DNA from: Sphaerochaeta pleomorpha str. Grapes
GTDB taxonomy: Bacteria > Spirochaetota > Spirochaetia > Sphaerochaetales > Sphaerochaetaceae
Assembly: GCF_000236685.1 (NCBI RefSeq)
Contig: NC_016633.1
Location: forward strand, 1,860,001 to 1,924,000
DNA: 64,000 nucleotides
Reading direction: 5' to 3'
The notes under the pieces: model-generated
Database searches by the model: none
The model's input: only the letters and a program-made list of their open reading frames with translations
What the model was told of the DNA's origin: nothing
In this document: in pieces, positions 23,352-40,894 of the stretch
Layout of the letters: each line of letters begins with the position of its first letter
Position numbering within the stretch: the first letter of the stretch is position 1
Position numbers and translations under genes: made by a program

Positions 23352-24632
23352 TTATTTCTCCAGCATAATTTTCAGGATTTCCACATCGGTGGAATGCATA
23401 CCGACCTGGGCCATTTTGCCCACACTACGGATCGTGCTTTCCACATCGCGCTTCACCATGCCTTCACCATGCTTGAACACCCCTCCGTTATCCTGGATGC
23501 AATACCCATTCAAAGCTGCTTCCAGTGCAATCGAAATCTTTGCCGCGCAGGAGGGTTTCGCTCCGTCGCAAATCATTCCCCCTACCGTGCAGATGGAATT
23601 GGTGATGGTATTGGAAATCTCCTCATACCGTCCACCCAGCATATAGGCAACCCCACTGGCACTTCCCGTGGCGGCACAAACCACCCCACAGTAGGCCGAA
23701 AGGTCCCCGATATATTGTTTCTGATGGATGGCTACAAGGTTCGCGATTGCCAAGGCCTTCAGCACAGTCTCTCGTGGAGCTTTGAGTTCCTTTGCATACT
23801 CCACGATCGGCATCGTGAGGGTAATCCCCTGGTTCCCGCTTCCCGAGTTGATAATCACCGGCTTGGCACAGCCGCTCATGCGGGCATCAGAGCCTGCGGC
23901 TGCCGCCGCCCGTGCCTTGGTCCTCACATCCGAGTTTTCACCATTGGTCTTTAAAAGGGACCTTCCGACATTGGCACCCCAGGAATTCGACAATCCTTCG
24001 CGTGATATTTCTGAATTGAAGGCAATCTGTTTTCCAAGGATCTCTTCGACATCTTCCAATCGCAGGCAATCGGCAAAGGATATGATATCCTGAATATTCA
24101 AAAGACTGTAATCCAAATCCACTTCTCCGACGTTCTCTTCCAAAGCTTGTGAAAAAATGAGTTTTCCATCTTTCTCGATCCGAGTGATATGGGTATGCCT
24201 ATTCTTGATTTCCACCAGAACCTTATGGCCTTGGGCTTCCACCTCACAGACAATAATCAGATTATCATCCCCCTGTACCAAAGTGCAGGAGCAATAGAGA
24301 GGGTCCTTGAGTAACTCTTTTGTCTTTTCGATGTCCTCAGATGTAACTGCACTGAGTACTTCCAAAAGCATTTCCGGCTTTCCCCCGACAATACCGAGAA
24401 CCGTAGCGACATCGATGCCCTTGAGGCCGCCGGAATTTGGAACCGTAACACCCATTACATTCTTAATGATATTCCCGCTACAGCCAATCGTAATCTTTTC
24501 GGGAAGGCAGCCAAGGACCTCTCGGGCCTTGGCAGAACAGTAGGCTATCGCTATTGGTTCGGTACATCCAAGGGCTGGAACCAACTCATGCTTCAGTATC
24601 GCCACATACGCAGCATATTTCCTTTCATCCAT
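23352..24632 (-). CDS. UPF0597/CyuA-type desulfidase-like protein (paralogue 2, cassette A)
   Basis: 426 residues. Cysteines C23 (GCTEP), C51 (CSGN), C255 (GCAKP), C315 (YCG), C355 and C362 (CDGAKPSC) align with those of the other two paralogues, so an iron-sulfur cluster is likely intact. Known CyuA breaks L-cysteine to pyruvate, ammonia and sulfide. GGAAGG is 7 bases before ATG, and the stop of the fused DhaKL gene lies 12 bases upstream. As last gene of cassette A it probably acts late in the pathway, by an elimination reaction. The substrate is inferred only by family. Confidence 0.85.
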   Translation of the reverse strand: MDERKYAAYVAILKHELVPALGCTEPIAIAYCSAKAREVLGCLPEKITIGCSGNIIKNVMGVTVPNSGGLKGIDVATVLGIVGGKPEMLLEVLSAVTSEDIEKTKELLKDPLYCSCTLVQGDDNLIIVCEVEAQGHKVLVEIKNRHTHITRIEKDGKLIFSQALEENVGEVDLDYSLLNIQDIISFADCLRLEDVEEILGKQIAFNSEISREGLSNSWGANVGRSLLKTNGENSDVRTKARAAAAAGSDARMSGCAKPVIINSGSGNQGITLTMPIVEYAKELKAPRETVLKALAIANLVAIHQKQYIGDLSAYCGVVCAATGSASGVAYMLGGRYEEISNTITNSICTVGGMICDGAKPSCAAKISIALEAALNGYCIQDNGGVFKHGEGMVKRDVESTIRSVGKMAQVGMHSTDVEILKIMLEK

Positions 24633-24644: not shown

Positions 24645-26387
24645 CTATTGTAGGGCTTTCGCAATTTCAGTGAACAACACCCCAAGCCCATAGGCCCCTG
24701 CATCAGGATAGCCGATACTCCTCGTCCCCACAGTCCCTGCACGTCCCATTCTGGCAACAATGCTCTCTGTGGCTTTGGCTCCTGCCATCGCAGCTTCAGC
24801 CCCTTTACCAAAACATTCTTTCAGGGAAAGTCCTTTGCTTGCATTCTCACTCCAACTGTCTGCACAGGGAGCAAGCGCATCGATCAAGGTTTTATCCCCG
24901 ACAACGGCTCCACGGCCAAAGGACCTCTCCCCTGTCATTTGGATGGCCTTTACACAGCCTTGCAGCAATTCAGCCATCTCAAGCGAAGTAACAAATTCCT
25001 TTCCTGCAGTATATTTGCCGGCACTGCGGAAGGCAGAACCCCAGATAGGGCCACTTGCCCCACCGCAATATTCCATAATGACAATCGAGCATTCATCAAG
25101 GAATTCGCTTATAGTGCCACTCTTTTCCAGAATGGTTTTCCACTCACGCTTGAGCTGTTTGAAACCCTTGGCAATACTCATCCCGAAATCACCGTCTCCG
25201 GCATGGGAATCCAATTCACAGAACGGAATCTCATTCTCTATTGCAACGGCTGAAAGCTTATCCACCAAATAGGTAAAATTCTCCAAGGTAAGTTTCTCAT
25301 CCTGGATACTTGCGCAGGAGGCAGGAACCTCGACGGTGAAAATAGCCTCTTTCACTTCTGACTTTGCCAGAGGTATGTAGGTAATATCCTGTTCCTTTCC
25401 ACTTAAGGTAAGAGCAGGAGTGTTTGCAGCAGCTACCAGATAGGTCTTCAGTTCATCATCGAGTTTCACCATAGTCAAAGAAGCGCCAGCCATATCGAGG
25501 CTTGTCATAAAATCACCGACAAACACCCTGACAACATTCACATTTTTTTCCTGCAGGGTATTGAGCACGGAATTATTGAAGGCATACAGCTCTTGAAGCG
25601 GGGTCGATCCGAACCCGTTCACCATGATTGCTACTTCAGCATTCCCCGCTTTTAATTCCTTGAGCAGGGGGTCGACCATTTGAGACACCAACTCATCGAT
25701 GCTCTTGACTTTCTGCCGGCAAATACCCGGCTCCCCGTGTATACCAACCCCGAATTCCATTTCATCCTCTGCCAGGGCAAAAGTCGGGGAACCCTTGGCG
25801 GGAACCGTGCAGGAAGAAAGGGCAAAACCCAGACTCTTGGTATTGGCAATCGTTTTCTCCGCAATCCTTTTTACTTCAGCAAGGGAAAGGCCGGCCTCGG
25901 CTGCAGCCCCTGCAATTTTATGCACAAATACCGTTCCTGCTACACCTCTTCTTCCCACGGTGTAGAGACTGTCTTCAACTGCGATATCATCATTGACAAT
26001 GACATATGCAACATCGATCCCATCTTCAAGAGCCAATTGCCTGGCATTCTTGAAGTTCATATTGTCACCGCTGTAGTTCTTGATAATCAAAAGAGTGCCT
26101 TTCTTGCTCTGGCTTGCTTTGATAGCTTTATAGACCTGTATCTGGGAAGGTGAAGCGAATACATCACCACAGACTGCTACATCAAGCATACCTTTTCCAA
26201 CATATCCCGCATGGGCGGGTTCATGCCCGGTACCACCACCCGAGATGAGCGAGACTTTCTCAGTATCGATTTCTTTTTTCATGATGAGTTTACTTTTGCT
26301 ATCGAATGCAAGTTCGGGATAGGCAGCAACCAATCCATTGCACATCTCATTTACCAAAGTCTCGGGACTATTGATTAATTTTTTCAT
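24645..26387 (-). CDS. Fused dihydroxyacetone-kinase-family protein (DhaK-DhaL)
   Basis: 580 residues, the length of ATP-dependent DAK kinases. N-terminal DAK1 domain (about 1-330): GGGTGHEPAH with H55, NYSGDNMNF with D108 and the covalent-substrate histidine H217 in GVGIHGEP. C-terminal DAK2 ATP-binding domain (about 365-580): DSHAGDGDFG metal aspartates, GGASGPIWG and MGRAGTVGTRSIG. The domains phosphorylate short ketoses (dihydroxyacetone, erythrulose) after hemiaminal binding to the His. No glycerol or erythritol genes are near; it sits with an importer, an ATC-hydrolase-like protein and a desulfidase, so the substrate is open. AGGAGG is 5 bases before ATG. Confidence 0.9.
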   Translation of the reverse strand: MKKLINSPETLVNEMCNGLVAAYPELAFDSKSKLIMKKEIDTEKVSLISGGGTGHEPAHAGYVGKGMLDVAVCGDVFASPSQIQVYKAIKASQSKKGTLLIIKNYSGDNMNFKNARQLALEDGIDVAYVIVNDDIAVEDSLYTVGRRGVAGTVFVHKIAGAAAEAGLSLAEVKRIAEKTIANTKSLGFALSSCTVPAKGSPTFALAEDEMEFGVGIHGEPGICRQKVKSIDELVSQMVDPLLKELKAGNAEVAIMVNGFGSTPLQELYAFNNSVLNTLQEKNVNVVRVFVGDFMTSLDMAGASLTMVKLDDELKTYLVAAANTPALTLSGKEQDITYIPLAKSEVKEAIFTVEVPASCASIQDEKLTLENFTYLVDKLSAVAIENEIPFCELDSHAGDGDFGMSIAKGFKQLKREWKTILEKSGTISEFLDECSIVIMEYCGGASGPIWGSAFRSAGKYTAGKEFVTSLEMAELLQGCVKAIQMTGERSFGRGAVVGDKTLIDALAPCADSWSENASKGLSLKECFGKGAEAAMAGAKATESIVARMGRAGTVGTRSIGYPDAGAYGLGVLFTEIAKALQ

Positions 26388-26479
26388 ACTATCCTCCTGT
26401 GATTCCTCTGCAAAACATGAACGGACCTATCGTCTTTTCGTGCGATACATCACATCAAACCATGATTCAGGCGAAAAAA

Positions 26480-26502
26480 AGCCCTCCCTCACAAAGAGGG
26501 CT
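26480..26502 (-). terminator. Internal terminator/attenuator before dhaKL
   Basis: Stem AGCCCTC/GAGGGCT with a 9-base loop followed on the minus strand by seven T. It lies between the ATC-hydrolase-like gene and dhaKL, so cassette A may be two transcription units or one with read-through control. Confidence 0.7.
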
Positions 26503-26523
26503 CATCTCCGGATCAAAATCAGC

Positions 26524-26561: not shown

Positions 26562-27059
26562 TTATTTGTTTTTTCTGAATGTTACTTCACAGATATCGTG
26601 ACCATTGGCGATGGTTTTACCAAGTTCATAGCCATAGTTACATTCAGCTGCAATACCTCTGTCCCCATCCATGGCAGCGTCACACATGAGCTTAATCTCT
26701 TCATCTGTCGCACCAAGCTTTTTCCAAGCAGTAACAAGCGGGCAGTAATGGAACTCAATATAAAGTTCGTCCTCATCACAACGTTTTACATCCATTTCGA
26801 ACACTTTCTGGACGTTGTCGGAGATAAAGACTTCTTTGAAAGCAGGAATACCCTCTTCTTTCTGGGCCCTCTGCATATTTGCACCATGGAAATGACCACA
26901 TTTGGTGATTGCCTCACGGGTGAAAGCCTCAGGATCCAAACCTGCTTTCTTGGCAGCTTCCATCATCAAGCACATCCAGGTTGCCCTGTGCTCGATAGCA
27001 CCTCTCAATACATTTACTATTTCATTGTCTACCAGTGTGGGTTCATTCTTGATTTCCAT
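26562..27059 (-). CDS. ATC-hydrolase-like protein (PF14196 type), cassette A
   Basis: 165 residues. Resembles the L-2-amino-thiazoline-4-carboxylate (ATC) hydrolase family, whose named Pseudomonas member opens the thiazoline ring on the way to L-cysteine; most members are uncharacterised. Shared with the cassette B protein: EHRATWM (23-29), RCG/KCG plus HG (C54, H58), YC in a hydrophobic strand (C106), CDxAMDGDRGIA (C126) and a C-terminal CE (C157). These four conserved cysteines and the His suggest metal binding or a catalytic thiol. It follows livF by 24 bases. Ring-opening or amidine hydrolysis is inferred only by family. Confidence 0.72.
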   Translation of the reverse strand: MEIKNEPTLVDNEIVNVLRGAIEHRATWMCLMMEAAKKAGLDPEAFTREAITKCGHFHGANMQRAQKEEGIPAFKEVFISDNVQKVFEMDVKRCDEDELYIEFHYCPLVTAWKKLGATDEEIKLMCDAAMDGDRGIAAECNYGYELGKTIANGHDICEVTFRKNK

Positions 27060-27083: not shown

Positions 27084-27803
27084 TTAAATATTTCCGAGAT
27101 ATGCCTTTCTGACATTATCATCTGTTAACAATTGTTTTCCTGTACCTTCCAGGGTTATCCTCCCTGTTTCCAGTACATAGGCCCTATCGGCAGTCTTGAG
27201 GGCCATTTTTGCATTCTGTTCTACCAGCAGAATGGTGACCCCGAGTTTCTTGATGTCCTTGATCAGATCGAATATCAGCATTACCAAGTTCGGAGAAAGC
27301 CCGAGAGACGGCTCATCCAATAACAGGACCTTGGGATCACTCATCAAAGCCCTTCCGATGGCAAGCATCTGCTGCTCACCCCCGCTTAGCGTCTTTGCAA
27401 CCTGGGTCTTCCTTTCAAACAGCCGGGGAAAAAGGCTGTAGACCTTTTCATAGTCCTGGGCAATCTTCACCTTGTCTTTCCTGGTGAAAGCCCCCAGTTT
27501 CAGATTGTCCTGCACAGAAAGGTCAGGGAACACTTCTCTTCCCTCAGGGGAAAGACAGATGCCCATTTTCACAATTTCCGCTGCGCTGCAATGGGCTAGG
27601 TCATTACCATCATAGATAATCTGTCCTTTCTTAGGCTTCAAAAGACCTACGATGGTGTTTAGAGTTGTTGATTTCCCTGCCCCGTTACTACCAATCAAGG
27701 CTACGATTTCACCTTTCCCGATTTCCATATTGATGCCTTTTACAGCATGGATCATTCCGTAGTAGGTATTGACATCTTTGAGTTCGAGAATTGGTTTAGG
27801 CAT
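27084..27803 (-). CDS. livF: Branched-chain-amino-acid-type ABC importer ATPase LivF, cassette A
   Basis: 239 residues. Walker A GSNGAGKST, signature LSGGEQQ, Walker B VLLLDEP and the LivF-type switch region LLVEQNAKMAL. ATG 27803 (MPKPIL) is chosen because GGAGG lies upstream and the fold begins there; it overlaps the livG stop by 8 bases. Works with LivG, LivH, LivM and the binding protein LivK. Confidence 0.92.
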   Translation of the reverse strand: MPKPILELKDVNTYYGMIHAVKGINMEIGKGEIVALIGSNGAGKSTTLNTIVGLLKPKKGQIIYDGNDLAHCSAAEIVKMGICLSPEGREVFPDLSVQDNLKLGAFTRKDKVKIAQDYEKVYSLFPRLFERKTQVAKTLSGGEQQMLAIGRALMSDPKVLLLDEPSLGLSPNLVMLIFDLIKDIKKLGVTILLVEQNAKMALKTADRAYVLETGRITLEGTGKQLLTDDNVRKAYLGNI

Positions 27804-28602
27804 GTTGCTCTTCCTCCTCTTCATCTTCATCTTCTTCGCCAAGGTACGCTACGATTACATCCTTGTTGGTGGCAATTTCCTGGGGAAGGCCCTCTGCAAT
27901 TTTCCGGCCGTGGTCAATGACGTAGATCCTGTCTGAGATATTCATGACCAGGTTCATGTCATGTTCAATCAAAACGATGGTAAAACCTTTGGAGACCAAG
28001 CTACGGATAAAGGCTAGCAACTCTTCGGATTCTTCGGGATTCATGCCCGCAGCAGGTTCATCAAGCAAAATCAATTGGGCCTCGGTAGCAATAGCACGTG
28101 CTATCTCTACCTTTCGCTGGTCTCCATAAGGAAGATTCGAGGGATAATCGTGGATATATTTATCAAGTTCAAGGAACTTAAGGATATCGACGGCTTTCTG
28201 TTGTTTTTCTTTTTCCAGTGTCCGGTACTTTTTAGTATGGAAAACCAGATCAAAAAAATTATAGTCAGTATTGGTATGCATGCCCAACAGGACATTCTGG
28301 ATTACCCTCATGTCAGAAAAAAGCCGGATATTTTGGAATGTCCGGGCCATTCCCGCTTTTACGATAGCCTGGGGAGTCTTCCCTTGGATTTCCTCTCCAT
28401 TGAAGAAGATTTGTCCACGGGTAGGTTGATAGACCCCGGTGAGCATATTGAATACCGTGGTCTTACCGGCACCGTTCGGCCCAATGATGCTTACAATCTC
28501 CCCTCTGTTTACCTGGAAATCAACATCATCTACGGCTTTGAGGCCTCCGAACTGTATGGATAGGTTTTTAACCAGCAGAATAGGATCCTGTTTAGTTTCC
28601 AT
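27796..28602 (-). CDS. livG: Branched-chain-amino-acid-type ABC importer ATPase LivG, cassette A
   Basis: 268 residues. Walker A GPNGAGKTT, LivG-type signature region LPYGDQRKVEIARA and Walker B LILLDEPAAGMNP, with IEHDMNLVM switch. Overlaps livM by 11 bases. Oddity: the C-terminus is a run of acidic residues (EEDEDEEEEEQHA) absent from the cassette B LivG and from typical LivG. Confidence 0.92.
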   Translation of the reverse strand: METKQDPILLVKNLSIQFGGLKAVDDVDFQVNRGEIVSIIGPNGAGKTTVFNMLTGVYQPTRGQIFFNGEEIQGKTPQAIVKAGMARTFQNIRLFSDMRVIQNVLLGMHTNTDYNFFDLVFHTKKYRTLEKEKQQKAVDILKFLELDKYIHDYPSNLPYGDQRKVEIARAIATEAQLILLDEPAAGMNPEESEELLAFIRSLVSKGFTIVLIEHDMNLVMNISDRIYVIDHGRKIAEGLPQEIATNKDVIVAYLGEEDEDEEEEEQHA

Positions 28603-29593
28603 AGGATTGCACCCCTTTCATCAGTTTGAAGGGCTTGTTGCTATGCCCCCCGAGAATTCCCTCAGGTTTGAATCTCATCATCAAGACAAGAATCAAGCCA
28701 TAGATGATGAACCGATACTCGCTGGCAAACCTCAAAATTTCCGGGAAGGAAATCAGCAGTGCTGCACCAAGGAACGAACCGGCAATGGATCCTGTTCCCC
28801 CGAGAATGACAATACTGATAATGATAATGGAGATGTCGAAATTGAAGGTATTGGGGTCAAGGAACCTGACAAAGTGAACATAGAACGCTCCTCCAAGACC
28901 TGCGATTGCCGCAGAGATGACAAAACTTTTCATCTTGTAGGCAGTTACATCCACACCCATCATGGTAGCAGCCAAAGAATCATCCCTGATCGCCATGAAA
29001 GCCCTTCCCATTTTCGAATTGACGATTCGATAGACAACCAGCGTTACCAAAGCTGTCATGATGATTGAAAGGTAGAAAAACCCGCCATTGAAGGTAGTGA
29101 GGGTAATACCGAAAAACTCAGGCCTTTCAATGTGGTTCACCCCTAATGGGCCACCTGTAAAGGATTGCCAGTTAAGTGCAACCATCTTGACGATTTCCCC
29201 GAAACCCAATGTCGCGATAGTAAGGTAACTGCCGGACAATCTACTGGTAGGGGCTGCAAGCATCAGACCGACAATACCTGCCATGACCATGCCGCAAAGC
29301 GCCGTTACCAACCAGGGAAGCCCCAGGTATTGCCACATCAGAGCCGAAGTATACCCACCTACGGCGCAGAAGCCCGCATGCCCGATCGATACAAGTCCCG
29401 TAAACCCAGTTAAAAGGTTCAAAGACAGGGAAAGCATCGAATACAGGGAAATCATGGTAAGGATACGCACGATGTAGGGTGATAAAAGGCCACTTTTGGG
29501 AAGATAGAGAACCAGTATAACCAGCACAGCCAGGGCTGCTATCTTCTTCGGTTTTGAATCCAATAGTTTTTTGCTTGTTTTGTTATGTTTCAT
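28592..29593 (-). CDS. livM: Branched-chain-amino-acid-type ABC importer permease LivM, cassette A
   Basis: 333 residues with about nine hydrophobic segments. LivM landmarks: GFTGLVSIGHAGFCAVGGY near 75-95, SGSYLTIATLGFGEI near 130-145, GRAFMAIRDDSLAA coupling region near 210 and VILGGTGSIAGSFLGAALL near 270. Four bases after livH. Confidence 0.9.
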   Translation of the reverse strand: MKHNKTSKKLLDSKPKKIAALAVLVILVLYLPKSGLLSPYIVRILTMISLYSMLSLSLNLLTGFTGLVSIGHAGFCAVGGYTSALMWQYLGLPWLVTALCGMVMAGIVGLMLAAPTSRLSGSYLTIATLGFGEIVKMVALNWQSFTGGPLGVNHIERPEFFGITLTTFNGGFFYLSIIMTALVTLVVYRIVNSKMGRAFMAIRDDSLAATMMGVDVTAYKMKSFVISAAIAGLGGAFYVHFVRFLDPNTFNFDISIIIISIVILGGTGSIAGSFLGAALLISFPEILRFASEYRFIIYGLILVLMMRFKPEGILGGHSNKPFKLMKGVQSYGN

Positions 29594-29596
29594 GAT

Positions 29597-30475
29597 TTAT
29601 ACCTTTTCAATCACCTTTTTGCCAAATAATCCATTCGGACGGAAAATGAGCACAATAATCAGAATGATGAATGCAACGGCATCACGATACCCACCACCGA
29701 GATAGTAGGCAGCAAAACTCTCTGCAAGTCCAACGACCAGGCCTCCGAACACAGCACCATGGAGGATTCCGATCCCTCCCAGAACTGCAGCGGAAAAAGC
29801 CTTGAGACCGGCTATAAATCCCATTTGCGGATTGACAATCTGGTAATAGCCGCTGATCAGTGAGCCTGCAACTGCAGCGGAAGCCCCACCCAAAAAGAAC
29901 GTAAACGAAATAACTTTATTAACATCAATGCCCATCAGTGATGCAGCCTTTGCATTCTGTTGCACGGCCCGCATAGCCAATCCAATCTTTGTTTTTTGGA
30001 CAATGAACGTTAAAAGGAGCAAAAGGGCAACGGAGACAGCAATTATTCCAACCTGAGTCGATTTAATCAAAATGTTTCCAACGGTAAAATTCCCATAGTC
30101 AAAAATCTTGGGAAACCACTTCGACCTGCTGCCAAACACGATCATCAGGAAATTCTGGATAATATAAGAACACCCAATAGTGGTGATAAGGGCAGAAATT
30201 CCCTTTGACTTCTTTACTCGTAGTGGTCTCAGGGCAATTCGATCCATCAGCATGGTCATACCGCCAGTTACCAAGACACTAACAACCACACCCCAGAACA
30301 GTCCGAAGCTTGTCGATACGACTACGACCATAGCGATATGAGCGCCGAAAGCGTAGGTAGCTCCATGGGCAAAGTTAACCAGGCGAAGAACGCCGAATAC
30401 CAGAGAATACCCAACGGCAATCAAGGCATAGACAATGCCTAGGGTTAATCCATCAAATACTTGTTGTAGAATCAT
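29597..30475 (-). CDS. livH: Branched-chain-amino-acid-type ABC importer permease LivH, cassette A
   Basis: 292 residues with about eight hydrophobic segments; LivH landmarks GLTLGIVYALIAVGYSLVFG, LRLVNFAHGATYA and the coupling stretch GLAMRAVQQNAKAASLMGI, plus AAVLGGIGILHGAVFGG. GGGAG is 5 bases before ATG. A stem-loop separates it from the upstream livK gene. Confidence 0.9.
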   Translation of the reverse strand: MILQQVFDGLTLGIVYALIAVGYSLVFGVLRLVNFAHGATYAFGAHIAMVVVVSTSFGLFWGVVVSVLVTGGMTMLMDRIALRPLRVKKSKGISALITTIGCSYIIQNFLMIVFGSRSKWFPKIFDYGNFTVGNILIKSTQVGIIAVSVALLLLLTFIVQKTKIGLAMRAVQQNAKAASLMGIDVNKVISFTFFLGGASAAVAGSLISGYYQIVNPQMGFIAGLKAFSAAVLGGIGILHGAVFGGLVVGLAESFAAYYLGGGYRDAVAFIILIIVLIFRPNGLFGKKVIEKV

Positions 30476-30541: not shown

Positions 30542-31687
30542 CTATAACTTGCTCTTGTCGATCATGGTGAATTTGCCATCCTTGATCATCAACCAGTTGA
30601 ATGTCTTGAAGGCATCACCAGTTGCATCAAAGTACGTTACCCCTGCAACGCCATCATAGTTGATCTTGTAGAGCTGATCCTTGATGGCTTTCCTGTCTGC
30701 AGATTTGGCTTCGTTGATAGCCTGGACAAACATACCAAGTGAATCATACGCCTGGGCAGTGAGGGAACTGGGAATCTTGCCAGCGTAATCTTTCATGTAA
30801 TCGTCAACAAAACTCCTGACCTTCGCTTCAGGGCTCTCATGGAAGAATATTGCAGGAAGGGCAATACCGTTCCCGTCTTCCTGAGCAAGCTTGATCAGCT
30901 GTTCGCTGTAGGCATTAGAGAAACCAATGAGGTTGATCTTGGAATCAATGTCCCTGTACTGGTTGGCAAAAGGTCCAAGGATGTTGTACATGGCACAAAC
31001 GATGATCGTATCGGGCTTGTAGGAACGAAGCTTGGTGATGGTTGAGGAGAAATCGGTCAAACCATCAAGGATTTCCTCGTATCCGACAATCTCGAGCTCC
31101 GGATGATCCTTGGCAAGGGTATTGATAAGGATATCTGCAGTCTTTACGCCCCAGTCGGTTTTGACTGCAAGGACGGCAACCCTTTTGGCCTTGAATACGT
31201 CAGAGGCAATGTTCAGTGTTTCGTTAGCCTCGACGTTGATCAATGAGTTATTCCTGAAGATATACTCGCCCATGCCCGAATAGTCCGGATGGGAAGCACT
31301 GGGGGAAATCTCGGGGACACCGACTTCCTCATAAGTAGGGGCGGCAGCCATGGAAACACCGCTTGCAAAGTGACCGACGACACCGACAATGTCCTTGTTC
31401 CCTGCAATTCGTTCGGCAATCGAAGCTGCTTCCTCGCCACTGTTCTTGTCATCGAAATCAACGATTTCAATCTGACGACCGTCAAAAATCCCGCCAGCTG
31501 CATTGATCTGCTTTGCATGCAATTCAACCGCGTTCTTAAATCCTTGGCCATATTCGGCAAAGTCGCCGGTAAGGGGGCCTACAACTGCAATCTTAATAGG
31601 TTTCTGGGTTTCTTTGCTTCCGTTAGCGAAAGCAAAACCTAATACAAGCAGAGACAGGAGAGCTACCAACATAATACGCTTTTTCAT
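30542..31687 (-). CDS. livK: Periplasmic LivK-type substrate-binding protein, cassette A
   Basis: 381 residues. Signal peptide about 1-21 (MKKRIMLVALLSLLVLGFAFA, followed by NGSKE) and a Periplas_BP_6-type fold: IKIAVVGPLTGDFAEYG, INAAGGIFDGRQIE, VGVVGHFASGVSMA, SPSASHPDYSGMG. The binding pocket of this family recognises the alpha-amino-carboxylate group, but many members bind other small carboxylates. ATG 31687 is chosen since GGAGG is 8 bases upstream. First gene of cassette A, divergent from a GntR regulator. Confidence 0.9.
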   Translation of the reverse strand: MKKRIMLVALLSLLVLGFAFANGSKETQKPIKIAVVGPLTGDFAEYGQGFKNAVELHAKQINAAGGIFDGRQIEIVDFDDKNSGEEAASIAERIAGNKDIVGVVGHFASGVSMAAAPTYEEVGVPEISPSASHPDYSGMGEYIFRNNSLINVEANETLNIASDVFKAKRVAVLAVKTDWGVKTADILINTLAKDHPELEIVGYEEILDGLTDFSSTITKLRSYKPDTIIVCAMYNILGPFANQYRDIDSKINLIGFSNAYSEQLIKLAQEDGNGIALPAIFFHESPEAKVRSFVDDYMKDYAGKIPSSLTAQAYDSLGMFVQAINEAKSADRKAIKDQLYKINYDGVAGVTYFDATGDAFKTFNWLMIKDGKFTMIDKSKL

Positions 31688-32004
31688 TGAACGATCCTCC
31701 ATCCTTTCTTTACTCTTTCGTAGAAACTACAAAAGGTTTTCTGTGTGATTCGAGTGAATTTTCCGAGCCTTCTCTTTTGGTATATCACTGGAATTCCAGT
31801 AACATACTAGAAAGAGTACCATAGAATTCAGATTACGCAAGGAAAAATCTCAGGAATTTTTTTTCGCCGCCGATTACCTTTTTGAGAACAAACAAGGTAC
31901 TGAAAATCTATCGCATATAAATTATTTCGTCTCTTGTAAATGCTCTATAAATTCTTTATCATCAAAAAACATTGATAAAAATCAAATTATATGGAGCATC
32001 TGAA
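31688..32004. other. Divergent control region of cassette A
   Basis: No gene. AT-rich, holding the promoters of livK (minus) and the GntR regulator (plus), with a 14-base palindrome at 31787-31800 as best operator candidate. Confidence 0.55.
31787..31800. promoter_or_regulatory. Candidate GntR operator ACTGGAATTCCAGT
   Basis: Perfect 14-base palindrome about 100 bases before the livK start, in the divergent region. I do not see the same word in the cassette B control region (40895-41155), so the two regulators may have different sites. Confidence 0.45.
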
Positions 32005-32673
32005 ATGGCCGAAACAAAGAATAAGTATGGTGGCGATCCATTAAAAAACCAATATCATAAAATTATTCTAGACAGAATCATACACTGCACGTATAAAAGC
32101 AATGACATTATCAATATCCAGTCACTTGTATCTGAGTTCAATGTCAGCAAAACCCCAATCAGGGAAGCCCTTCTTGAACTCTGCGACGAGGGTCTTTTGA
32201 AAAGCATTCCCAAATTTGGGTATGAAGTCACCCCGTTCGAGGAAGACCAAATCAGACAGGTTTTAAATTTCAGGTATCTGATCGAGACCAGTGCCATGGA
32301 TGCCTATTGGGAAATGCTCTCAAACAAAGAAACCATAGAGGAACTGACTGCAATCGTTGACATCAGCGAATCCCTTCGCGAGGAGGCAAGTCCCTTGGAA
32401 CGCTGGGAACATACCGCACAGTTCCATATCAAGCTAGCCTCATTATACAAAAATGAGTACCTGAGTGCCCAATTGAAGAAGGCCATCAGGTTTTTAGGCA
32501 TCGATTATGCCCGTTCCATCTGGATCTCCCTCAATCCCATTGACAAGTATTTTGGCGAGGAATGCCACCGGGTCATCATTAAAGAAATCGAAAACAACAA
32601 CAAAAAGAATGCCCTTTTGGCCTTGAAAAAAGACATGGAAAACTACAGGAAGATTTGTTTAAACAAACGATAA
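32005..32673 (+). CDS. GntR-family regulator (FCD type), cassette A
   Basis: 222 residues. N-terminal winged helix (about 15-75, with FNVSKTPIREALLELCDEGLL and PKFGYEVTPF) and an all-helical effector domain typical of the FadR/FCD subfamily. The cassette B regulator is clearly similar throughout (SKSPIREALIELCNEGFLKS, PRFGYEVVSF, LExWEHxxxFHI/L). ATG 32005 has GGAG 8 bases upstream; an upstream ATT-type extension is not credible. Divergent from livK, hence probable local regulator. Confidence 0.87.
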   Translation: MAETKNKYGGDPLKNQYHKIILDRIIHCTYKSNDIINIQSLVSEFNVSKTPIREALLELCDEGLLKSIPKFGYEVTPFEEDQIRQVLNFRYLIETSAMDAYWEMLSNKETIEELTAIVDISESLREEASPLERWEHTAQFHIKLASLYKNEYLSAQLKKAIRFLGIDYARSIWISLNPIDKYFGEECHRVIIKEIENNNKKNALLALKKDMENYRKICLNKR

Positions 32674-32772: not shown

Positions 32773-34062
32773 TTAGTTTTCTTTCTCCATCATGATGTTC
32801 AGGATTTCCCGGTCTGTAGATTTCATACCAATCCTACCCATCCTTCCAAAACTCTTGATGGTATTGTCAGCATTCGACTTGACCAGTCCATCTCCATTAA
32901 TGAAGCTCTTGTTTTCCTTCATTCCCATTTCAAAGGCAAAGATTCCCGATTTGACTGCAGTTGCAATCTTTGAGGCACAGGAGGCCTTTGCCCCATCGCA
33001 GACTACCCCACCGATATCGGCAAGACAATTTGTAATGACGTTGGAAATTTCCTGTTGCCTTCCACCATGCAGATACGCAATGCCACATCCGGCAGCAGTC
33101 CCTGCACATACGGCCCCACAGAAAGCACTCAGGCTTCCCAATTGGTTTTTCTCCTGCATGGAGATGAGATTGCTCAAAGCCAAGGCCCTCAATAACTCTT
33201 CGTGAGATGATTTGAGCTCTTTTGCATACTCCATAACCGGAAGAGATACCGTCATTCCTTGGTTCCCGCTGCCGCTATTGATGATAACAGGCATCGAACA
33301 ACCGCCCATCCTGGCATCTGAACCGGCAGCCGCGGCGGCACAGGCGCGTGTTCGGACATCATTCTTATCATAGAATTTCAGCAGTGATTTCCCTACCCCG
33401 AGCCCCCATTTGCCTGTCAAACCTTCTTTCGATATTGCAGCATTATACTCAATCTCCCGTTCAAGGACTGATTTGATGTCATCTACTTTTACCGTGTCAG
33501 CAAACTCTACAATATCTTTTACATTCAGAAAGGCAGCATACTTTTCGAAGACATTGTCATCATCTTCTTTGATCTCTTTTGAAAAAAGAATCGTATCATT
33601 TTTCTCGATCAACGTAATATTCGTATGATGGGTGGTAATTTCCACTGCTGCAGAATCTGAAGCATTGCAGGCATATACGCGAATGAACAGATTGTTTTCA
33701 TTCGATGACAACAAACAGGTACAGAAACCTTCACGTAGCAAACTTCTCGTCTTTTTGACATCCTCACTGGAAACCTCTTTGAGCACTTCCAGTCCACTTT
33801 CAGGATTTCCCCCAACCACGCCAAGGGTTGCCGCAACATCAATGCCTCGCAAACCCTCACAATTAGGCACCACGACCCCCTGCACATTCTTTACAATATT
33901 CCCACTGCAAGCGACGCTGATTTTATCAGGCATGGCACCAAGGGTTTCCCGTGCTTTCGCTGCGGCGTATGCGATGGCAATGGGCTCAGTGCAACCCAAA
34001 GCCGGTTGCAATTCCATTTTCAGTAACGCAACATATGCTTCATAGATATCTGTATCCATCAT
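32773..34062 (-). CDS. UPF0597/CyuA-type desulfidase-like protein (paralogue 3, cassette B)
   Basis: 429 residues. C24 (GCTEP), C52 (CSGN), C255 (GCSMP), C315 (FCG), C355 and C362 (CDGAKASC) match the cluster-type cysteines of the other two copies. Two starts (MM) exist; the first ATG overlaps the last base of the dhaL stop (TAATG), so the genes are translationally coupled. That coupling of a lyase to a ketose-kinase subunit is itself unusual. Substrate unknown. Confidence 0.85.
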   Translation of the reverse strand: MMDTDIYEAYVALLKMELQPALGCTEPIAIAYAAAKARETLGAMPDKISVACSGNIVKNVQGVVVPNCEGLRGIDVAATLGVVGGNPESGLEVLKEVSSEDVKKTRSLLREGFCTCLLSSNENNLFIRVYACNASDSAAVEITTHHTNITLIEKNDTILFSKEIKEDDDNVFEKYAAFLNVKDIVEFADTVKVDDIKSVLEREIEYNAAISKEGLTGKWGLGVGKSLLKFYDKNDVRTRACAAAAAGSDARMGGCSMPVIINSGSGNQGMTVSLPVMEYAKELKSSHEELLRALALSNLISMQEKNQLGSLSAFCGAVCAGTAAGCGIAYLHGGRQQEISNVITNCLADIGGVVCDGAKASCASKIATAVKSGIFAFEMGMKENKSFINGDGLVKSNADNTIKSFGRMGRIGMKSTDREILNIMMEKEN

Positions 34063-34685
34063 TAGGCTCTCTGTACGTATGCTGCCAAGGATTTGAAAAT
34101 CAAACTCCCGACAACAGAACCACCGTCAATGATCCCGATACTTTTTTCCCCGTAGTAGGCAGCTCTACCATGGACAGACTTCATAGACCTGGTGTTTTCC
34201 GATCCTATACGTGCGGCTTCGGCGGCTTTTTCAAAAGCGACCACAGCCCCTTCACCCTGATAAGCTTGCAAGGCATCGATACCGGGAATAAGGGAATCGA
34301 GAATTGTCTTTTCCCCAGCTTTGCTCCCTGCCTTCTTCATGATATTTTCAATCCCTGAATACAGAGCCGCGACCAGGTCTTCCAGGCTTGCGTCTGTCTT
34401 CCCTTTCAATTTTTTCGCCATGCCCATCATGCCAAAGGAAGTGATGGTACCCAAAGAAGAGGGTGCTGACTCATTGAAGGTCCCCGCCATGTTCATGAAC
34501 ACCTTTCCCAGGTCCTCTTCAGTGTTTTCAAGCAAATAATGCAAGACGCTTTTATACCCGTCGCTCATAGAAATACCAAGATCCCCATCACCATTTTGCT
34601 GGTCGAGCGCGATAAGGTACTCTTTTTCACTTGTCATGGTTTCGCTAATATAGTTCATTGCTTCACAAAGATTCACACTATTCAT
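34062..34685 (-). CDS. DhaL-type ATP-binding kinase subunit, cassette B
   Basis: 207 residues, the size of stand-alone DhaL. Metal-binding aspartates in ALDQQNGDGDLG (D28, D33, D35), phosphate contacts in PSSLGTITSFG, and HGRAAYYGEKSIGIIDGGSVVG at the end. In PTS-type systems DhaL partners DhaK and DhaM; no dhaM is present here, so ATP may be used directly, as in the fused cassette A protein. Nine bases separate it from dhaK. Confidence 0.87.
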   Translation of the reverse strand: MNSVNLCEAMNYISETMTSEKEYLIALDQQNGDGDLGISMSDGYKSVLHYLLENTEEDLGKVFMNMAGTFNESAPSSLGTITSFGMMGMAKKLKGKTDASLEDLVAALYSGIENIMKKAGSKAGEKTILDSLIPGIDALQAYQGEGAVVAFEKAAEAARIGSENTRSMKSVHGRAAYYGEKSIGIIDGGSVVGSLIFKSLAAYVQRA

Positions 34686-34694: not shown

Positions 34695-35702
34695 CTATTT
34701 GTTTTCGGAAGTATAGAACGGAGAAGATGCAGGTTTTCTCAACAGAGCTTTCAATTGCTCGTCAAGTTTCATGATTGTAATCGATAGCCCGGCCATCTCC
34801 ATCGAAGTGGCAAATTCACCGATATGGGGCATAAACACTGACACTCCCTGTTCCTTGAGCCTGGAAGCTACACGACTGTAGACAAGAATCTGTTCCTCAA
34901 GCGGAGTGGCGCCAAGTCCGTTCACCATAACTGCCACCTCCGAGCCTTTTGCCAGGGGCATGTCGTTGACAATCTTTTCAAAGATGAAATCGGCAATTTC
35001 ATTGGCCGTCAACATCTTGCAGACTTCGATCCCCCGTTCCCCATGAATACCCATTCCCAACTCCAGCTCATCGTCTTCGATGGTGAAGGTCGGTTTGCCC
35101 ACCTCAGGGACGATACAGGGAGAAAGAGCGACGCCCATGGTCCGTATGTTGGAAACTGCCTTCTTTGTGACAGCCACAACTTCTTCCAAACTCATCATTT
35201 CATCGGCCGCGGCACCGGCAACCTTGAATGCGAAAACCATGCCGGCAACGCCACGCCTTTTCTCTGCAGTTTCCCTTGGACTGGAAGCCACGTCGTCGGT
35301 AACAAGCACGCTCATGGTCTCGATGTCGTCCATTTCTACCATCTCACATGCCATAGCAAAATTCATCTTGTCCCCACCGTAATTCCCATAGAGACACAGA
35401 ACGCCATTGCCATCGTCACAAGCGGTGATCATGGCAGCCATTTTCTTGGCAGAGGGAGAAGCAAACACATTTCCTACTGCACAGCCATCTAGCAAACCGG
35501 AACCAACATACCCAAGAAACACCGGAAGATGTCCACTGCCTCCGGCTGTGACAATTCCTACCTTTCCTTTTTTTCTAGGATAGGCTGATACAAGGATTCG
35601 CTTGTCTCCATCAAGGAGACGAACCCTGTCACCATAGGCCAATTCAATTCCAACCATTACTTCATCGACGAAATTCTGGGGTTCATTCATAATTTTTTTC
35701 AT
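34695..35702 (-). CDS. DhaK-type substrate-binding kinase subunit, cassette B
   Basis: 335 residues. DAK1 domain with GGSGHLPVFLGYVG (H58), NYGGDKMNF (D111) and the covalent-substrate His H220 in GMGIHGERG. It departs from canonical DhaK and from the cassette A protein at HLP (usually HEP), close to the substrate, which suggests a different ketose or keto substrate. ATG 35702 is chosen (AGGA 8 bases upstream, 13 bases after the livF stop); an upstream extension runs into livF. Confidence 0.88.
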   Translation of the reverse strand: MKKIMNEPQNFVDEVMVGIELAYGDRVRLLDGDKRILVSAYPRKKGKVGIVTAGGSGHLPVFLGYVGSGLLDGCAVGNVFASPSAKKMAAMITACDDGNGVLCLYGNYGGDKMNFAMACEMVEMDDIETMSVLVTDDVASSPRETAEKRRGVAGMVFAFKVAGAAADEMMSLEEVVAVTKKAVSNIRTMGVALSPCIVPEVGKPTFTIEDDELELGMGIHGERGIEVCKMLTANEIADFIFEKIVNDMPLAKGSEVAVMVNGLGATPLEEQILVYSRVASRLKEQGVSVFMPHIGEFATSMEMAGLSITIMKLDEQLKALLRKPASSPFYTSENK

Positions 35703-35715
35703 TTGTTTTTCCTTA

Positions 35716-36432
35716 TTAACCGCCCAAATAGGCTTTGATAATCGCAGGGTTGTGCAATAATTCTTCCCCGCTTCCTTCCAATGTGATAGTACCGGTTTCA
35801 AGGACATACCCCCGATCTGCGATCGACAAGGCCATGGAGGCATTCTGCTCGATCAAAAGAATGGTCTTTCCTTTTTGCCGGATGCGTACCAACAATTCAA
35901 AAATCTCCTCGACAATGATGGGAGCCAACCCCAATGACGGCTCATCCAACATGATAAGGTCGGGATCCATCATCAGGCCTCTGGCAATTGCAAGCATTTG
36001 CTGCTCACCGCCGGACAAAGAGCCCCCTGCCTGGGTGAGGCGTTCCTTCAAGCGAGGGAACATCAGGTAATTCATCTCCAGCAATTCCTGGAATTTCTCC
36101 TTGGTCTGTTTCGGCTGCCCCATACTCCCCGAGACAAGGTTCTCGTAGACAGTCATATCGGGGAATATTTTACGTCCTTCCGGAACATGGGCTATGCCCA
36201 TTTTTACAATTTTCTCAGGCGAGAGTCTCGAAATATCCTGACCTTTGAAGAATACGTTCCCCCCTGCCTTGGGAATCAGATTGGAAATTCCCATCAAAGT
36301 GCTGGTCTTACCGGCACCATTGCCTCCGATCAGGGTCACCAATTCACCTTCATTCACTACGATGTCAGCATTTCGCAAGGCTGAAATATAACCATAGTTA
36401 ATGCTCAAATCTTCAATTTTCAGCAGCGACAT
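35716..36432 (-). CDS. livF: LivF-type ABC ATPase, cassette B
   Basis: 238 residues: Walker A GGNGAGKTS, signature LSGGEQQ, Walker B LIMLDEPSLGLAP, switch LLIEQNASMAL. GGAGG is about 6 bases before ATG, which overlaps the end of livG by 20 bases. Confidence 0.92.
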   Translation of the reverse strand: MSLLKIEDLSINYGYISALRNADIVVNEGELVTLIGGNGAGKTSTLMGISNLIPKAGGNVFFKGQDISRLSPEKIVKMGIAHVPEGRKIFPDMTVYENLVSGSMGQPKQTKEKFQELLEMNYLMFPRLKERLTQAGGSLSGGEQQMLAIARGLMMDPDLIMLDEPSLGLAPIIVEEIFELLVRIRQKGKTILLIEQNASMALSIADRGYVLETGTITLEGSGEELLHNPAIIKAYLGG

Positions 36433-37228
36433 TGATTGCCTCCCCGGCTACAAGCCCTTTTCCAAAGTACGCTTCACGTACATTCTGATTCGTCTTGATG
36501 ACATCAGGAGTGCCTTCACAGATTTGTTGCCCAAAATTCAATACAATAATCCTATTGCAGGTGTTCATCACAAACTTCATGTCGTGCTCAATTACCCCAA
36601 TTGTATATCCCAAGGCATTGATCTTCAGAATATAGTCAGAAAGCTCTTTGGTCTCATTCGGGTTCATTCCCGCAGCCGGTTCATCAAGCAAGAGGATTTT
36701 GGGGTTGATTGCCAAAGCCCTGGCTATTTCAACTTTCCGTTGGACACCATAGGGAAGATTCCCCGCCTTGGTCTCCGTATATTTGGAAAGCCCAACCAGA
36801 TCAAGAATTTCCTTGCCCTTTTCAATTGCGTAGGCTTCATCGGCATTGAACTGCTTGGTATGAAACACAGTGTCAATCAGATTCGATTTCAAATTGAGAT
36901 GGAAACCAATCTTGATATTGTCCAAAACACTCATATACTTGAACAGTTTGATGTTCTGGAATGTTCGTGCCATTCCTTTCTTTGCAATCTGTTCAGGTTT
37001 TAAGTTGGTGATATCCTCGCCGCAGAGAAATACTTTTCCCTTTGTAGGGAGGTTAAACCCAGTGCAGGAGTTGAACAGGGTTGTCTTTCCGGCACCGTTC
37101 GGACCAATGATGCCATAGATATCCCCTTGGTGAATTTCCAGATTTATATCCTCCACTGCGTGCAATCCACCAAAATACATACAAATATGTTCAGTACTCA
37201 GTACCGGTTGTCTCTGTATCTCAAGCAT
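36413..37228 (-). CDS. livG: LivG-type ABC ATPase, cassette B
   Basis: 271 residues: Walker A GPNGAGKTT, LPYGVQRKVEIARA, Walker B ILLLDEPAAGMNP, switch IEHDMKFVM. ATG 37228 (MLEIQR) is chosen from a GGGGGA site 6-7 bases upstream; it overlaps the livM stop by 8 bases. Lacks the acidic tail of the cassette A LivG. Confidence 0.92.
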   Translation of the reverse strand: MLEIQRQPVLSTEHICMYFGGLHAVEDINLEIHQGDIYGIIGPNGAGKTTLFNSCTGFNLPTKGKVFLCGEDITNLKPEQIAKKGMARTFQNIKLFKYMSVLDNIKIGFHLNLKSNLIDTVFHTKQFNADEAYAIEKGKEILDLVGLSKYTETKAGNLPYGVQRKVEIARALAINPKILLLDEPAAGMNPNETKELSDYILKINALGYTIGVIEHDMKFVMNTCNRIIVLNFGQQICEGTPDVIKTNQNVREAYFGKGLVAGEAINVAAEN

Positions 37229-38237
37229 GTTTTTTCCCCCGATCCTGCAATTTTCCCACCATTTTGTTACCAGCAAGTTTGCTGTCAGTAGCCCCAGCAA
37301 GCCCTTGGGGGCGATACCACATCATAATAATGATCAACAAGGCAAAGGCCACCAAACGCCATTGTCCAATAGGACGGAGTACTTCTGTGAGGAAATTTAC
37401 GATAATAGAGCCGATTACCGGACCAATAAAAGTTCCTTGCCCACCCAAAATTACCATGGAGAGAATGTTCCATCCTTCGTCCAACGTAAAATAGGTCGAG
37501 TCGATAAACCTGACATAGGGGGCATATACGCAACCCACAACCCCAATCCAAAAAGCCCCATACATAAAGTTGAAAGCTTTGTAAACCGAAGCATTTACCC
37601 CAAGACTTTTCGAAGCCAGTTCATCTTCACGGATAGACATCCAGGCGCGTCCGATTTTGCTCTTGATAACTCTGTTCGATACGAAAATAAAGACTATCGC
37701 CAGAGCCAAAAAGAGGTAGTAATAGGAACGTGAATTTTTGAATACGATTCCAAACAGCTCAGGTACCGGAATATTCTTGATACCCAAGGCACCCCCGGTC
37801 AATGGGGTTGCATTCAAAGCCAACAAGCGGGCAATCTCCGAAAACCCCAAAGTGACGATGGCGAGATAGATACCACTCATCTTCAAGGTCGGCCATGCCA
37901 CAACCAGACCGACGATAGCTGTTACGATTCCTGCAAGAGGTATACACAGCCAGAAACTCAGTCCGACTTTCGTCGCCAGGATAGCCTCGGTATAGGCACC
38001 GAAACAGAAGAATCCGGCAACCCCCAGACAAGTTTGTCCACTGTATCCATTGATAATATTCAAAGCCCCTGCAAGGGTTGCATACATCAATATCCTGCAC
38101 ATAACGCCCATAACATAGCTTTTATTATTGACAAGCGGTAAGACAAACAGAAAAGCCAACAAGAGAAGGGAATACAATACTTTATGTTTGTCAAAAATCA
38201 ATTTAGCCCGTTTTTTTGTATCTGCGAGCATGTTCAT
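37221..38237 (-). CDS. livM: LivM-type ABC permease, cassette B
   Basis: 338 residues, about nine hydrophobic segments; GYSGQTCLGVAGFFCFGAY near 65-83, SGIYLAIVTLGFSEI near 120, GRAWMSIREDELASKSLGV coupling region and VILGGQGTFIGPVIGS. ATG overlaps the livH stop by 4 bases (ATGA). Confidence 0.9.
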   Translation of the reverse strand: MNMLADTKKRAKLIFDKHKVLYSLLLLAFLFVLPLVNNKSYVMGVMCRILMYATLAGALNIINGYSGQTCLGVAGFFCFGAYTEAILATKVGLSFWLCIPLAGIVTAIVGLVVAWPTLKMSGIYLAIVTLGFSEIARLLALNATPLTGGALGIKNIPVPELFGIVFKNSRSYYYLFLALAIVFIFVSNRVIKSKIGRAWMSIREDELASKSLGVNASVYKAFNFMYGAFWIGVVGCVYAPYVRFIDSTYFTLDEGWNILSMVILGGQGTFIGPVIGSIIVNFLTEVLRPIGQWRLVAFALLIIIMMWYRPQGLAGATDSKLAGNKMVGKLQDRGKKHA

Positions 38238-39109
38238 ACTTTCGTCCCCCTCTTCTTCACGAACCCGGTCGGTTTGAAAATCAAGACTAGAATGAGGAAC
38301 CCAAAGGCAAATACATCACGATAGCTAGCAGAAGTGACAGTAATTCCAAGGTTCTCAACAAGTCCAATGCACAAGCCACCCAAGGCTGAGAACCTTACAT
38401 CAGTCAACCCGCCCAATACGGATGCAGAGAAGGCCTTCATTCCCAAGGCCCCACCCATCGTTGCCTGTACAACCTGGTAGTAAATACAGATAAGCAGACC
38501 GGCAATGCCACCCAGACCGCAACCGACACAATTGCCAAGCATGGCAATCCTTTTTACATTTATCCCAACCATATAGGCTGCACTCTTGTCCTGACTGACA
38601 GCTCTAAGCATGACCCCGAATTTTGTATGGTAGAAAATATAATTAAGGGCTACGGCAAGACACACGACAAGAGAGATAATCATAATCTGCAACGAACTGA
38701 TCTGCATTGCCCCAATATGGTAGAATTTAATATGTACGATATTCAGCATCGGTATCTGGTTTGGACCAAAAAAGATTTGAGCCAGGTTCTTTACCAACAT
38801 GGAAAACCCAATTGTACACAACAACGAGATATGGCGCGGAGAGTTGAAAAATCGCTCGTAACAAACCTTGTAAACAAAAATGCCCATTACCCAAGAGGCA
38901 AGGAAGGCGACAGTAAAGCCCAATATAAGGTTGGTACCACAATACTGGAACACATAGTAGGCAGCAAACGCTCCCATTATCATCACTTCACCATGGGTGA
39001 ACGTGACCATTCCGACAACGCCGACAACAACAGAATAACCAATAGCCATCAAGGCATAGATTGCACCCTGACATAACCCATTGATTATTTGATTGAGGAA
39101 ATATTCCAT
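38234..39109 (-). CDS. livH: LivH-type ABC permease, cassette B
   Basis: 291 residues, about eight hydrophobic segments; GLCQGAIYALMAIGYSVVVG, VTFTHGEVMIMG, coupling stretch GVMLRAVSQDKSAAYMVGI and ASVLGGLTDVRFSALGG. AGGGG lies 7 bases before ATG. Confidence 0.9.
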   Translation of the reverse strand: MEYFLNQIINGLCQGAIYALMAIGYSVVVGVVGMVTFTHGEVMIMGAFAAYYVFQYCGTNLILGFTVAFLASWVMGIFVYKVCYERFFNSPRHISLLCTIGFSMLVKNLAQIFFGPNQIPMLNIVHIKFYHIGAMQISSLQIMIISLVVCLAVALNYIFYHTKFGVMLRAVSQDKSAAYMVGINVKRIAMLGNCVGCGLGGIAGLLICIYYQVVQATMGGALGMKAFSASVLGGLTDVRFSALGGLCIGLVENLGITVTSASYRDVFAFGFLILVLIFKPTGFVKKRGTKV

Positions 39110-39183: not shown

Positions 39184-40350
39184 TTATTCTGCTGAATAGT
39201 CAAAACCCTTTTTCACTACATACTGGCCATTCTCAACCTGACAGATCAAATAGGCACGGGTGATATCCCCATCCTTATTGAATTTGATTGGTCCCGTAAT
39301 CCCGGTATATTCATTACGTGCAAGATTGTCCCTGATTCCCTGGCGTGTAACAGTATCTCCACAGGAATTGATAGCCTGGGCAATCAGGTTTACACAGTCA
39401 AAAGCACAGGCAGGGTGTACGGTAGGATTGAATTTGGCTTTGTCATTGAATTCAGTCTTCCAAGCCATCAACTCAGGAACCTGGGGGTCAAAGAAGAAAG
39501 GAGTCGACAGGATAAGACCTTCTGAATTTGCTCCGGTCAGACCGATCAACTGTTCAGAGGTTCCTGGTCCGAGGGTAGTCAAGGGAACATCCCAACCCAT
39601 GGCTCTCACTTGGTTAATGACCTGTGCAACAGCACCTTGGTCCATGATAATGAGGGCCTCGGGATTTGCTGCCTTGAGTTTGGTAATCAAAGAAGAGAAG
39701 TCCTTCTCATCTTGGACATAGTTGACCTCTGTTACAATTTCAACACCTGCTTCATTCGCAGCCTTACGGAAATTGTCTGCAGCTGATACACCCCAATCGC
39801 TATTGATGTAGATTAATCCGATTTTTTTCACACCCATGTACTTGCTGATGATGTATTTGGCAAAGAAAGGAGCTTCTCCATCCTGCCGGCCCATGATACT
39901 GAAACAGTAATCACTCATGCCTGCATATTTAGGATTGGAAGCAGTCGGAGACAGTTGTACAATTTTGGCATCATCCACGATCGGTGCATTGGCCATACTG
40001 CAACCGCTGGTAAAATCACCAATAATTGCCATAATGTCGGAATCATCACAGAATTGCCTGGTCAAGTCAGAACTCTCTTTCGGATCCCCCTTGGAATCTT
40101 TGGGAACAAGTATCAGTTTATACCCGTTAGCCCCACCTGCTGCGTTGATTCTGTCTGCAGCCATCTGGGTTCCAATCTTGAAACCTACACCATATTCGGC
40201 ATTGGTACCGGTTAAAGGACCCAACACGCCGATTTTGATGATTCCTTTGAATCCCTCGGCTTTGGCAGCCTCTTCTTCTTTGTTACCATTGGCAAAAAGA
40301 GCCATCGAAAGCATCATAAGGACACAAAGCAACGCACATAGTTTTTTCAT
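39184..40350 (-). CDS. livK: Periplasmic LivK-type substrate-binding protein, cassette B
   Basis: 388 residues. Signal peptide about 1-20 ending MALFANG, then Periplas_BP_6 fold: IKIGVLGPLTGTNAEYG, INAAGGANGYKL, GDFTSGCSMANAP, SPTASNPKYAGMSDYCF. The N-terminal lobe resembles the cassette A protein, including an SPxASxPxYxGM segment in the hinge/pocket area, but the C-lobes diverge. Follows the ATC-hydrolase-like gene by about 40 bases. Confidence 0.9.
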   Translation of the reverse strand: MKKLCALLCVLMMLSMALFANGNKEEEAAKAEGFKGIIKIGVLGPLTGTNAEYGVGFKIGTQMAADRINAAGGANGYKLILVPKDSKGDPKESSDLTRQFCDDSDIMAIIGDFTSGCSMANAPIVDDAKIVQLSPTASNPKYAGMSDYCFSIMGRQDGEAPFFAKYIISKYMGVKKIGLIYINSDWGVSAADNFRKAANEAGVEIVTEVNYVQDEKDFSSLITKLKAANPEALIIMDQGAVAQVINQVRAMGWDVPLTTLGPGTSEQLIGLTGANSEGLILSTPFFFDPQVPELMAWKTEFNDKAKFNPTVHPACAFDCVNLIAQAINSCGDTVTRQGIRDNLARNEYTGITGPIKFNKDGDITRAYLICQVENGQYVVKKGFDYSAE

Positions 40351-40390: not shown

Positions 40391-40894
40391 TTATTTGTGG
40401 AAATTCAGTTCACAGGTCTTACATCCCTTAGCTAGGGTATCGGACAAATCAAGGGTCAAGCCCATTGCCTTGGCAATACCTCTGTCCCCGTCCATTGCAA
40501 TGTCACAAAGCAGGGCACAGGTTGCATCATCCATCCCGAGTTTCTTCCAAGCAGAGAGCAAAGCGCAATAATTGAAAGAAATATGGAGACAATCCTGCTT
40601 TGCTTCGATGTTGTCCATATGGAATGTGTCTTGGCCACATTTATTGAGAAAGGTCTTCTCGAATTCGCGTACATCGGAAGGATCTGCACAGTTCTCCCTG
40701 ATTTTTGCCCCGTGTATCTCCCCACATCTATATACTGCTTTTCGCATGATGGGTTCTGGATCGATGCCTGCATTTTTCATTTCGTCAAAAAACAGTGCCA
40801 TCCACGTAGCACGATGTTCAACCTGGGATCTGTTGGTCGAAGCTACCTCATTCACTACATTTTCAATGTTCTCAATCACAATCTGCTCCTTCAT
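40391..40894 (-). CDS. ATC-hydrolase-like protein (PF14196 type), cassette B
   Basis: 167 residues, paralogue of the protein at 26562-27059. Conserved: EHRATWM (26-32), RCG plus HG (C57, H61), YCALLSAWKKLG (C110), CDIAMDGDRGIA (C130) and TCE (C161). Here it is the first gene of the cassette, ahead of the binding protein, whereas in cassette A it follows livF. Early position and high conservation suggest a central catalytic role. AAGG lies about 5 bases before ATG. Reaction unproven. Confidence 0.72.
   Translation of the reverse strand: MKEQIVIENIENVVNEVASTNRSQVEHRATWMALFFDEMKNAGIDPEPIMRKAVYRCGEIHGAKIRENCADPSDVREFEKTFLNKCGQDTFHMDNIEAKQDCLHISFNYCALLSAWKKLGMDDATCALLCDIAMDGDRGIAKAMGLTLDLSDTLAKGCKTCELNFHK

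Follow-up and report, generated by a model that had tools for sequence, protein, structure and literature searches.

The proteins of the Pfam family PF14196 (ATC_hydrolase) are routinely named L-2-amino-thiazoline-4-carboxylate (L-ATC) hydrolases, a name that rests on one Pseudomonas enzyme. Three conserved cysteines were already noted in this family by Galperin et al. 2018 (PMC5847659), who also described its likeness to the HNOB and V4R domains and the cluster of three cysteines common to them. In DmpR, which has a V4R sensory domain, the zinc ligands are Cys151, Glu172, Cys177 and Cys185 (PMC7264223), and in MsvR the V4R cysteines C206, C232 and C240 have been implicated in redox-dependent DNA binding (PMC3729527).

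Two genes encoding PF14196 proteins are present in the window, a stretch of 64,000 nucleotides from a Sphaerochaeta genome whose nearest named genomes are Sphaerochaeta MAGs (90–91% identity). Copy 1 (P0002, 165 aa, ATG start) spans positions 26562–27059 and copy 2 (P0003, 167 aa, ATG start) positions 40391–40894, both on the minus strand. These two small ORFs had been proposed in a sequence-only reading, and every motif listed there (EHRATWM, CG..HG, YC, CDxAMDGDRGIA and a final CE) was found in both proteins. Its family assignment was likewise confirmed, with scores of 76.3 bits (P0002) and 87.9 bits (P0003) against a gathering cut-off of 28.1 bits and matches covering model positions 4–145 of 145. 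P0002 and P0003 are hence members of a known family, and share 42% identity over 155 aa (E 8e-45); no NCBIfam model matched either of them. A third, diverged PF14196 gene (59 bits) lies in the same genome 5 kb past the window end (G000:C1:1928997-1929416, corresponding to L021:8943-9596, minus strand). It adjoins a PanE/ApbA-like gene, and its product shows CCNC where the other proteins have their final cysteine region.

Each copy belongs to a cluster with a Liv-type ABC transporter, all of it on the minus strand except for the regulators. In cluster 1, a LivK-type substrate-binding protein (30542..31702, family match to Peripla_BP_6) is followed by livH, livM, livG and livF (27084..30475) and then by copy 1. 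The gap behind copy 1 contains an intrinsic-terminator-like hairpin of 11 pairs (26479..26503, a consensus match only), which suggests that copy 1 closes a livKHMGF-ATC unit, with a fused DhaK-DhaL dihydroxyacetone-type kinase of 580 aa (24645..26387) and an SDH_alpha/L-cysteine desulfidase (CdsB) homologue (23352..24632) located downstream. In cluster 2, copy 2 is the first gene of its own operon, ATC-livKHMGF-dhaK-dhaL-SDHa, and is preceded by a promoter-like site (40966-40938, a consensus match only). It is followed by the second LivK-type protein (39184..40350), livH, livM, livG and livF (35716..39109), separate DhaK (34695..35843) and DhaL (34062..34685, with a DGDLG motif) subunits, and a second SDH_alpha/CdsB homologue (32773..34062). 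A GntR/FCD regulator on the plus strand is divergent from each cluster (31972..32673 and 41156..41821, respectively). The liv genes were recognised as ORFs, and their subunit names come from gene order, counterparts in homologous loci and the earlier naming rather than from a family scan of each gene. The shift in position between the copies, after livF (27084-27842) in cluster 1 and before livK (39184-40350) in cluster 2, was thus as originally described. The SPTASNP motif of the second LivK protein is taken by us to be a putative amino-acid-binding motif.

The catalytic motifs of the partner proteins are intact. SDH_alpha matches the solved L-cysteine desulfidase CdsB (PDB 9he0) with an E value of 8e-20; overall identity is low, but the GCTE, CG (CGV in the cluster 1 protein) and CDGxKxxC motifs are kept. 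The catalytic His, Asp and His of dihydroxyacetone kinases are conserved in both DhaK homologues, in the fused protein within GGGTGHEP, NYSGD and GIHGE. The DhaK of cluster 2 (34695-35843) and its relatives carry GGSGHLP, whereas the fused protein and solved DhaK have GHEP. As judged from the motif, this variant hints at a different kinase substrate.

The conservation of the cysteines was assessed, in P0002 numbering, in 88 proteins (79 loci from a genome scan plus five plasmid regions, the plasmids coming from Cetobacterium, Lentilactobacillus, Azospirillum and Citrobacter). C106, C126 and C157 were each present in all 88 homologues, with a near-fixed spacing of 20 and then 29–33 residues. 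By contrast, position 54 was Cys in 64/88 and Thr in 17/88, H58 was His in 76 of the 88, and the Glu that follows C157 was found in 25/88. A wider comparison of 15 members, distant PF14196 proteins included, gave the same core: C106, C126, T149 and C157 were retained by all 15 members, D133 and G153 by 14 of the 15 (the core equivalents in P0003 are C110, C130, D137, T153 and C161). AMDG proved to be a four-residue insert before Asp133, seen in this 15-member set solely in the clade of P0002 and P0003. The alignments thus define a PF14196 core of three cysteines plus Asp133, Thr149 and Gly153, with C54 and H58 as clade-level residues. Four invariant cysteines and a histidine had been proposed before; this holds for the two window copies but fails family-wide, since the proposal mixed the family core with clade-level residues. 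The accompanying idea of cysteine-centred chemistry is borne out at the level of sequence by the constancy of the three cysteines.

A search of the PDB by sequence (P0002 alone, and a 42-row profile) detected no relative, so the evidence on the fold comes from predicted models. AlphaFold2 models were obtained with a pLDDT of 89 for P0002 (7-row alignment) and 94 for P0003 (36-row alignment). Their best structural match was TRAPP Bet3 (Z 9.6–10.8), followed by PoxR and MopR through their V4R sensory domains (Z 8.1–10.4) and by MJ1460 (Z 6.5–6.9); H-NOX was also matched. Some of these Z values are middling, yet one superfamily dominates the listed matches, with near whole-protein coverage. These confident models indicate that P0002 and P0003 would take the TRAPP/V4R/H-NOX fold. 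The kinship with V4R and HNOB having already been published (PMC5847659), this result is a confirmation. Bet3 is a eukaryotic trafficking subunit, and its likeness to the window proteins is one of fold alone.

The full V4R zinc site, Cys-Glu-Cys-Cys, is not conserved in P0002 and P0003. The ends of the aligned ranges place C157 of P0002 and C161 of P0003 on residue 185 of PoxR and residue 189 of MopR. MopR Cys189 is presumably the corresponding zinc ligand. By spacing, C126 would also fall at a zinc-ligand position. However, the middle cysteine (Cys177 in DmpR) is replaced by Thr149, eight residues before C157, no clear counterpart of Glu172 was found, and Cys106 is extra. This argues that the zinc site was not simply inherited. 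We infer that C106, C126 and C157, together with D133 and T149, may form a metal- or substrate-binding site.

The fold brings in the main rival to an enzymatic role, namely that PF14196 proteins are non-enzymatic V4R-like ligand binders or redox sensors, which would inform the pathway of the imported substrate or of the thiol state. Most relatives with a V4R fold are ligand binders rather than catalysts, the predicted fold is common to the sensory domains of PoxR, MopR and DmpR, the MsvR cysteines offer a redox precedent, and the partners of PF14196 genes differ widely from locus to locus. Unlike the V4R sensors, however, PF14196 proteins stand alone, without an attached output, DNA-binding or signalling domain; GntR, sigma-54 or two-component regulators are already present in the loci, and the named member of the family was reported as a hydrolase (Tashima 2006, as cited in PMC5847659). 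A sensor is therefore regarded as possible but less probable than a hydrolase.

The gene neighbourhood was surveyed in 79 loci, on the same strand and within 10 kb of the PF14196 gene. Liv permease or binding-protein genes were found in 48/79 loci, dhaK or dhaL homologues in 34/79 and SDH_alpha, the [4Fe-4S] L-cysteine-desulfidase homologue, also in 34/79, with the reservation that best-hit BLAST labels may misname some livF and livG genes (one 'livG', in L045, is a UvrA-type protein). The background is much lower: 27 dhaK and 42 SDH_alpha places in 60 related genomes (~165 Mb, rounded sizes). At this density, 79 loci of ~20 kb should contain well below one of each. Among the 25 genomes of the genus, exactly 3 had a close livK, the same three that carry the P0002/P0003 clade. 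The loci span at least five phyla (Bacillota, Spirochaetota, Planctomycetota, Synergistota and Bacteroidota), and in Fusobacteriota and Pseudomonadota PF14196 loci occur on plasmids. The other partners include PALP and Cys/Met PLP enzymes, RidA, M20 and Amidohydro_3 amidohydrolases, URO-D-family proteins, SDR, PfkB and FGGY kinases, an ornithine-cyclodeaminase-family protein and an NCS1 permease. The partner set suggests that the substrate is a cyclic C–N or C–S compound which resembles an amino acid and also has a carbonyl or sugar-like moiety. No description of the Liv-DhaK-desulfidase-PF14196 module was found in a limited search of the open-licence literature, and the module appears to be undescribed so far.

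These partners bear directly on whether P0002 and P0003 are strict L-ATC hydrolases, acting in a route from L-ATC through N-/S-carbamoyl-cysteine to cysteine and then pyruvate and sulfide. The family name and the adjoining cysteine-desulfidase homologue speak for such a role, as do the M20 enzymes found together with PF14196 in loci of Azospirillum and Lachnospiraceae, which recall the known hydrolase/amidohydrolase pair. Nevertheless, no TIGR01879-family match that could represent the carbamoyl-cysteine amidohydrolase was found in the genome or the clusters; other M20 enzymes exist (e.g. window 3382-4662), but neither cluster contains an M20 gene. The lack of a TIGR01879-family match and the presence of DhaK, which has no role in L-ATC breakdown, argue against strict L-ATC catabolism, which we consider unlikely. 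The clade also differs from distant PF14196 members in its AMDG insert and its EHRATWM and CG..HG motifs, and its Liv, DhaK and CdsB-like operon partners misfit L-ATC breakdown. The annotation 'L-ATC hydrolase' is thus unproven for this clade of spirochaetes, clostridia and other anaerobes. The stability of the Liv-DhaK-desulfidase context despite changes of position and of partner lineage suggests that the label is wrong or too narrow.

The linkage of these genes had been attributed to function and not to simple operon inheritance. Correlations of pairwise distances were 0.62–0.85 among liv genes and 0.65–0.77 between liv and dhaK, but 0.26–0.33 between the PF14196 gene and liv, 0.17 between the PF14196 gene and dhaK and 0.10–0.18 between SDH_alpha and liv. 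The short PF14196 gene adds noise to the distances, yet the long SDH_alpha gene shows the same low correlation. Liv and DhaK therefore co-vary as one unit, while the PF14196 gene and the desulfidase have other histories, so that their linkage to Liv-DhaK looks functional. In the tree, P0002 and P0003 were placed in different well-supported clades, and a recent duplication of the window copies was rejected. The nearest relatives of copy 1 were from Dethiosulfatibacter and Fusibacter, a grouping that suggests transfer. The position of the PF14196 gene relative to liv was clustered on the tree, yet with at least nine changes. Hence the functional part of the earlier claim stands, but the different positions of the two copies, which belong to different clades, are partly inherited.

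Taken with the constant three-Cys core, the import and breakdown cluster points to a protein that probably opens the ring of an imported amino-acid-like compound. Our preferred reading, to which we give a probability of roughly 0.4, is that the clade consists of soluble cytosolic ring-opening hydrolases with a V4R/TRAPP-like fold, acting on a sulfur- or amidine-containing amino-acid-like compound. The adjacent Liv-type transporter would import the compound, and the PF14196 protein would open its five-membered ring, a thiazoline, thiazolidine or another cyclic amidine, perhaps with water activated by a Cys3-zinc site. Of the two halves of the product, the amino-acid one would pass to the adjacent desulfidase homologue, which would form aminoacrylate and, from this, pyruvate, ammonia and sulfide; the other, a small hydroxycarbonyl compound, would pass to the DhaK kinase. 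The catalysis, the metal, the ring type and the fates of both product halves are inferred. Once found, the substrate would be an unassigned nutrient, plausibly a sulfur source, and would provide the first well-founded mechanism for the PF14196 family.

The desulfidase also raises a different role, that of an accessory factor in cluster assembly or in sulfide or thiol handling for this [4Fe-4S] enzyme. The cysteines are invariant, and SDH_alpha is a recurrent partner, in some loci the sole one. Nonetheless, SDH_alpha is absent within 10 kb from 45/79 loci, more than half, and liv from 31/79 (some of the loci lie on truncated contigs), which counts against the ring-opening reading too and indicates that the role of PF14196 proteins does not depend on one partner set. 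As SDH_alpha homologues also occur in related genomes that lack the P0002/P0003 clade, an accessory function is possible but seems unlikely.

A more specific form of the ring-opening hydrolase would be the anaerobic catabolism of polyhydroxyalkyl thiazolidine-4-carboxylates, the adducts of carbonyl compounds with cysteine. Here Liv import and ring opening by the PF14196 protein would deliver cysteine to the desulfidase, while DhaK, PfkB or FGGY kinases would receive the half derived from a sugar or triose. Such a route is put forward as a long shot; if true, it would be previously undescribed. A thioproline/formaldehyde route was dropped, having no supporting gene.

Some loci depart from this pattern. 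On plasmid p1 of Cetobacterium somerae (L118), the PF14196 gene lies inside an operon with genes for a PepV dipeptidase, an HpaB-family protein, an acetyl-CoA hydrolase/transferase and a 4-hydroxybutyrate dehydrogenase. Sulfur chemistry offers no explanation for a PF14196 gene beside 4-hydroxybutyrate-type genes, which counts against the hydrolase reading.

Isolated PF14196 genes were observed on the Citrobacter plasmid pCF10-C (L122) and similar Enterobacteriaceae plasmids (more than 20 plasmid records); these are conjugative plasmids, and the gene is located near restriction-modification and helicase genes. Six loci (L063, L072, L117, L087, L120 and L121) contain two or three divergent PF14196 genes per operon, possibly reflecting heteromers or sequential steps. 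Within the window itself, the region 1103-5990 encodes one more SDH_alpha/desulfidase homologue, the third, which shares 55% identity with the cluster 1 protein. Also encoded there are a Crp-type regulator, a peptidase of the M20 family and a carrier of the DcuC/AbgT type. This region is devoid of a PF14196 gene and may represent a further cysteine-conjugate module.
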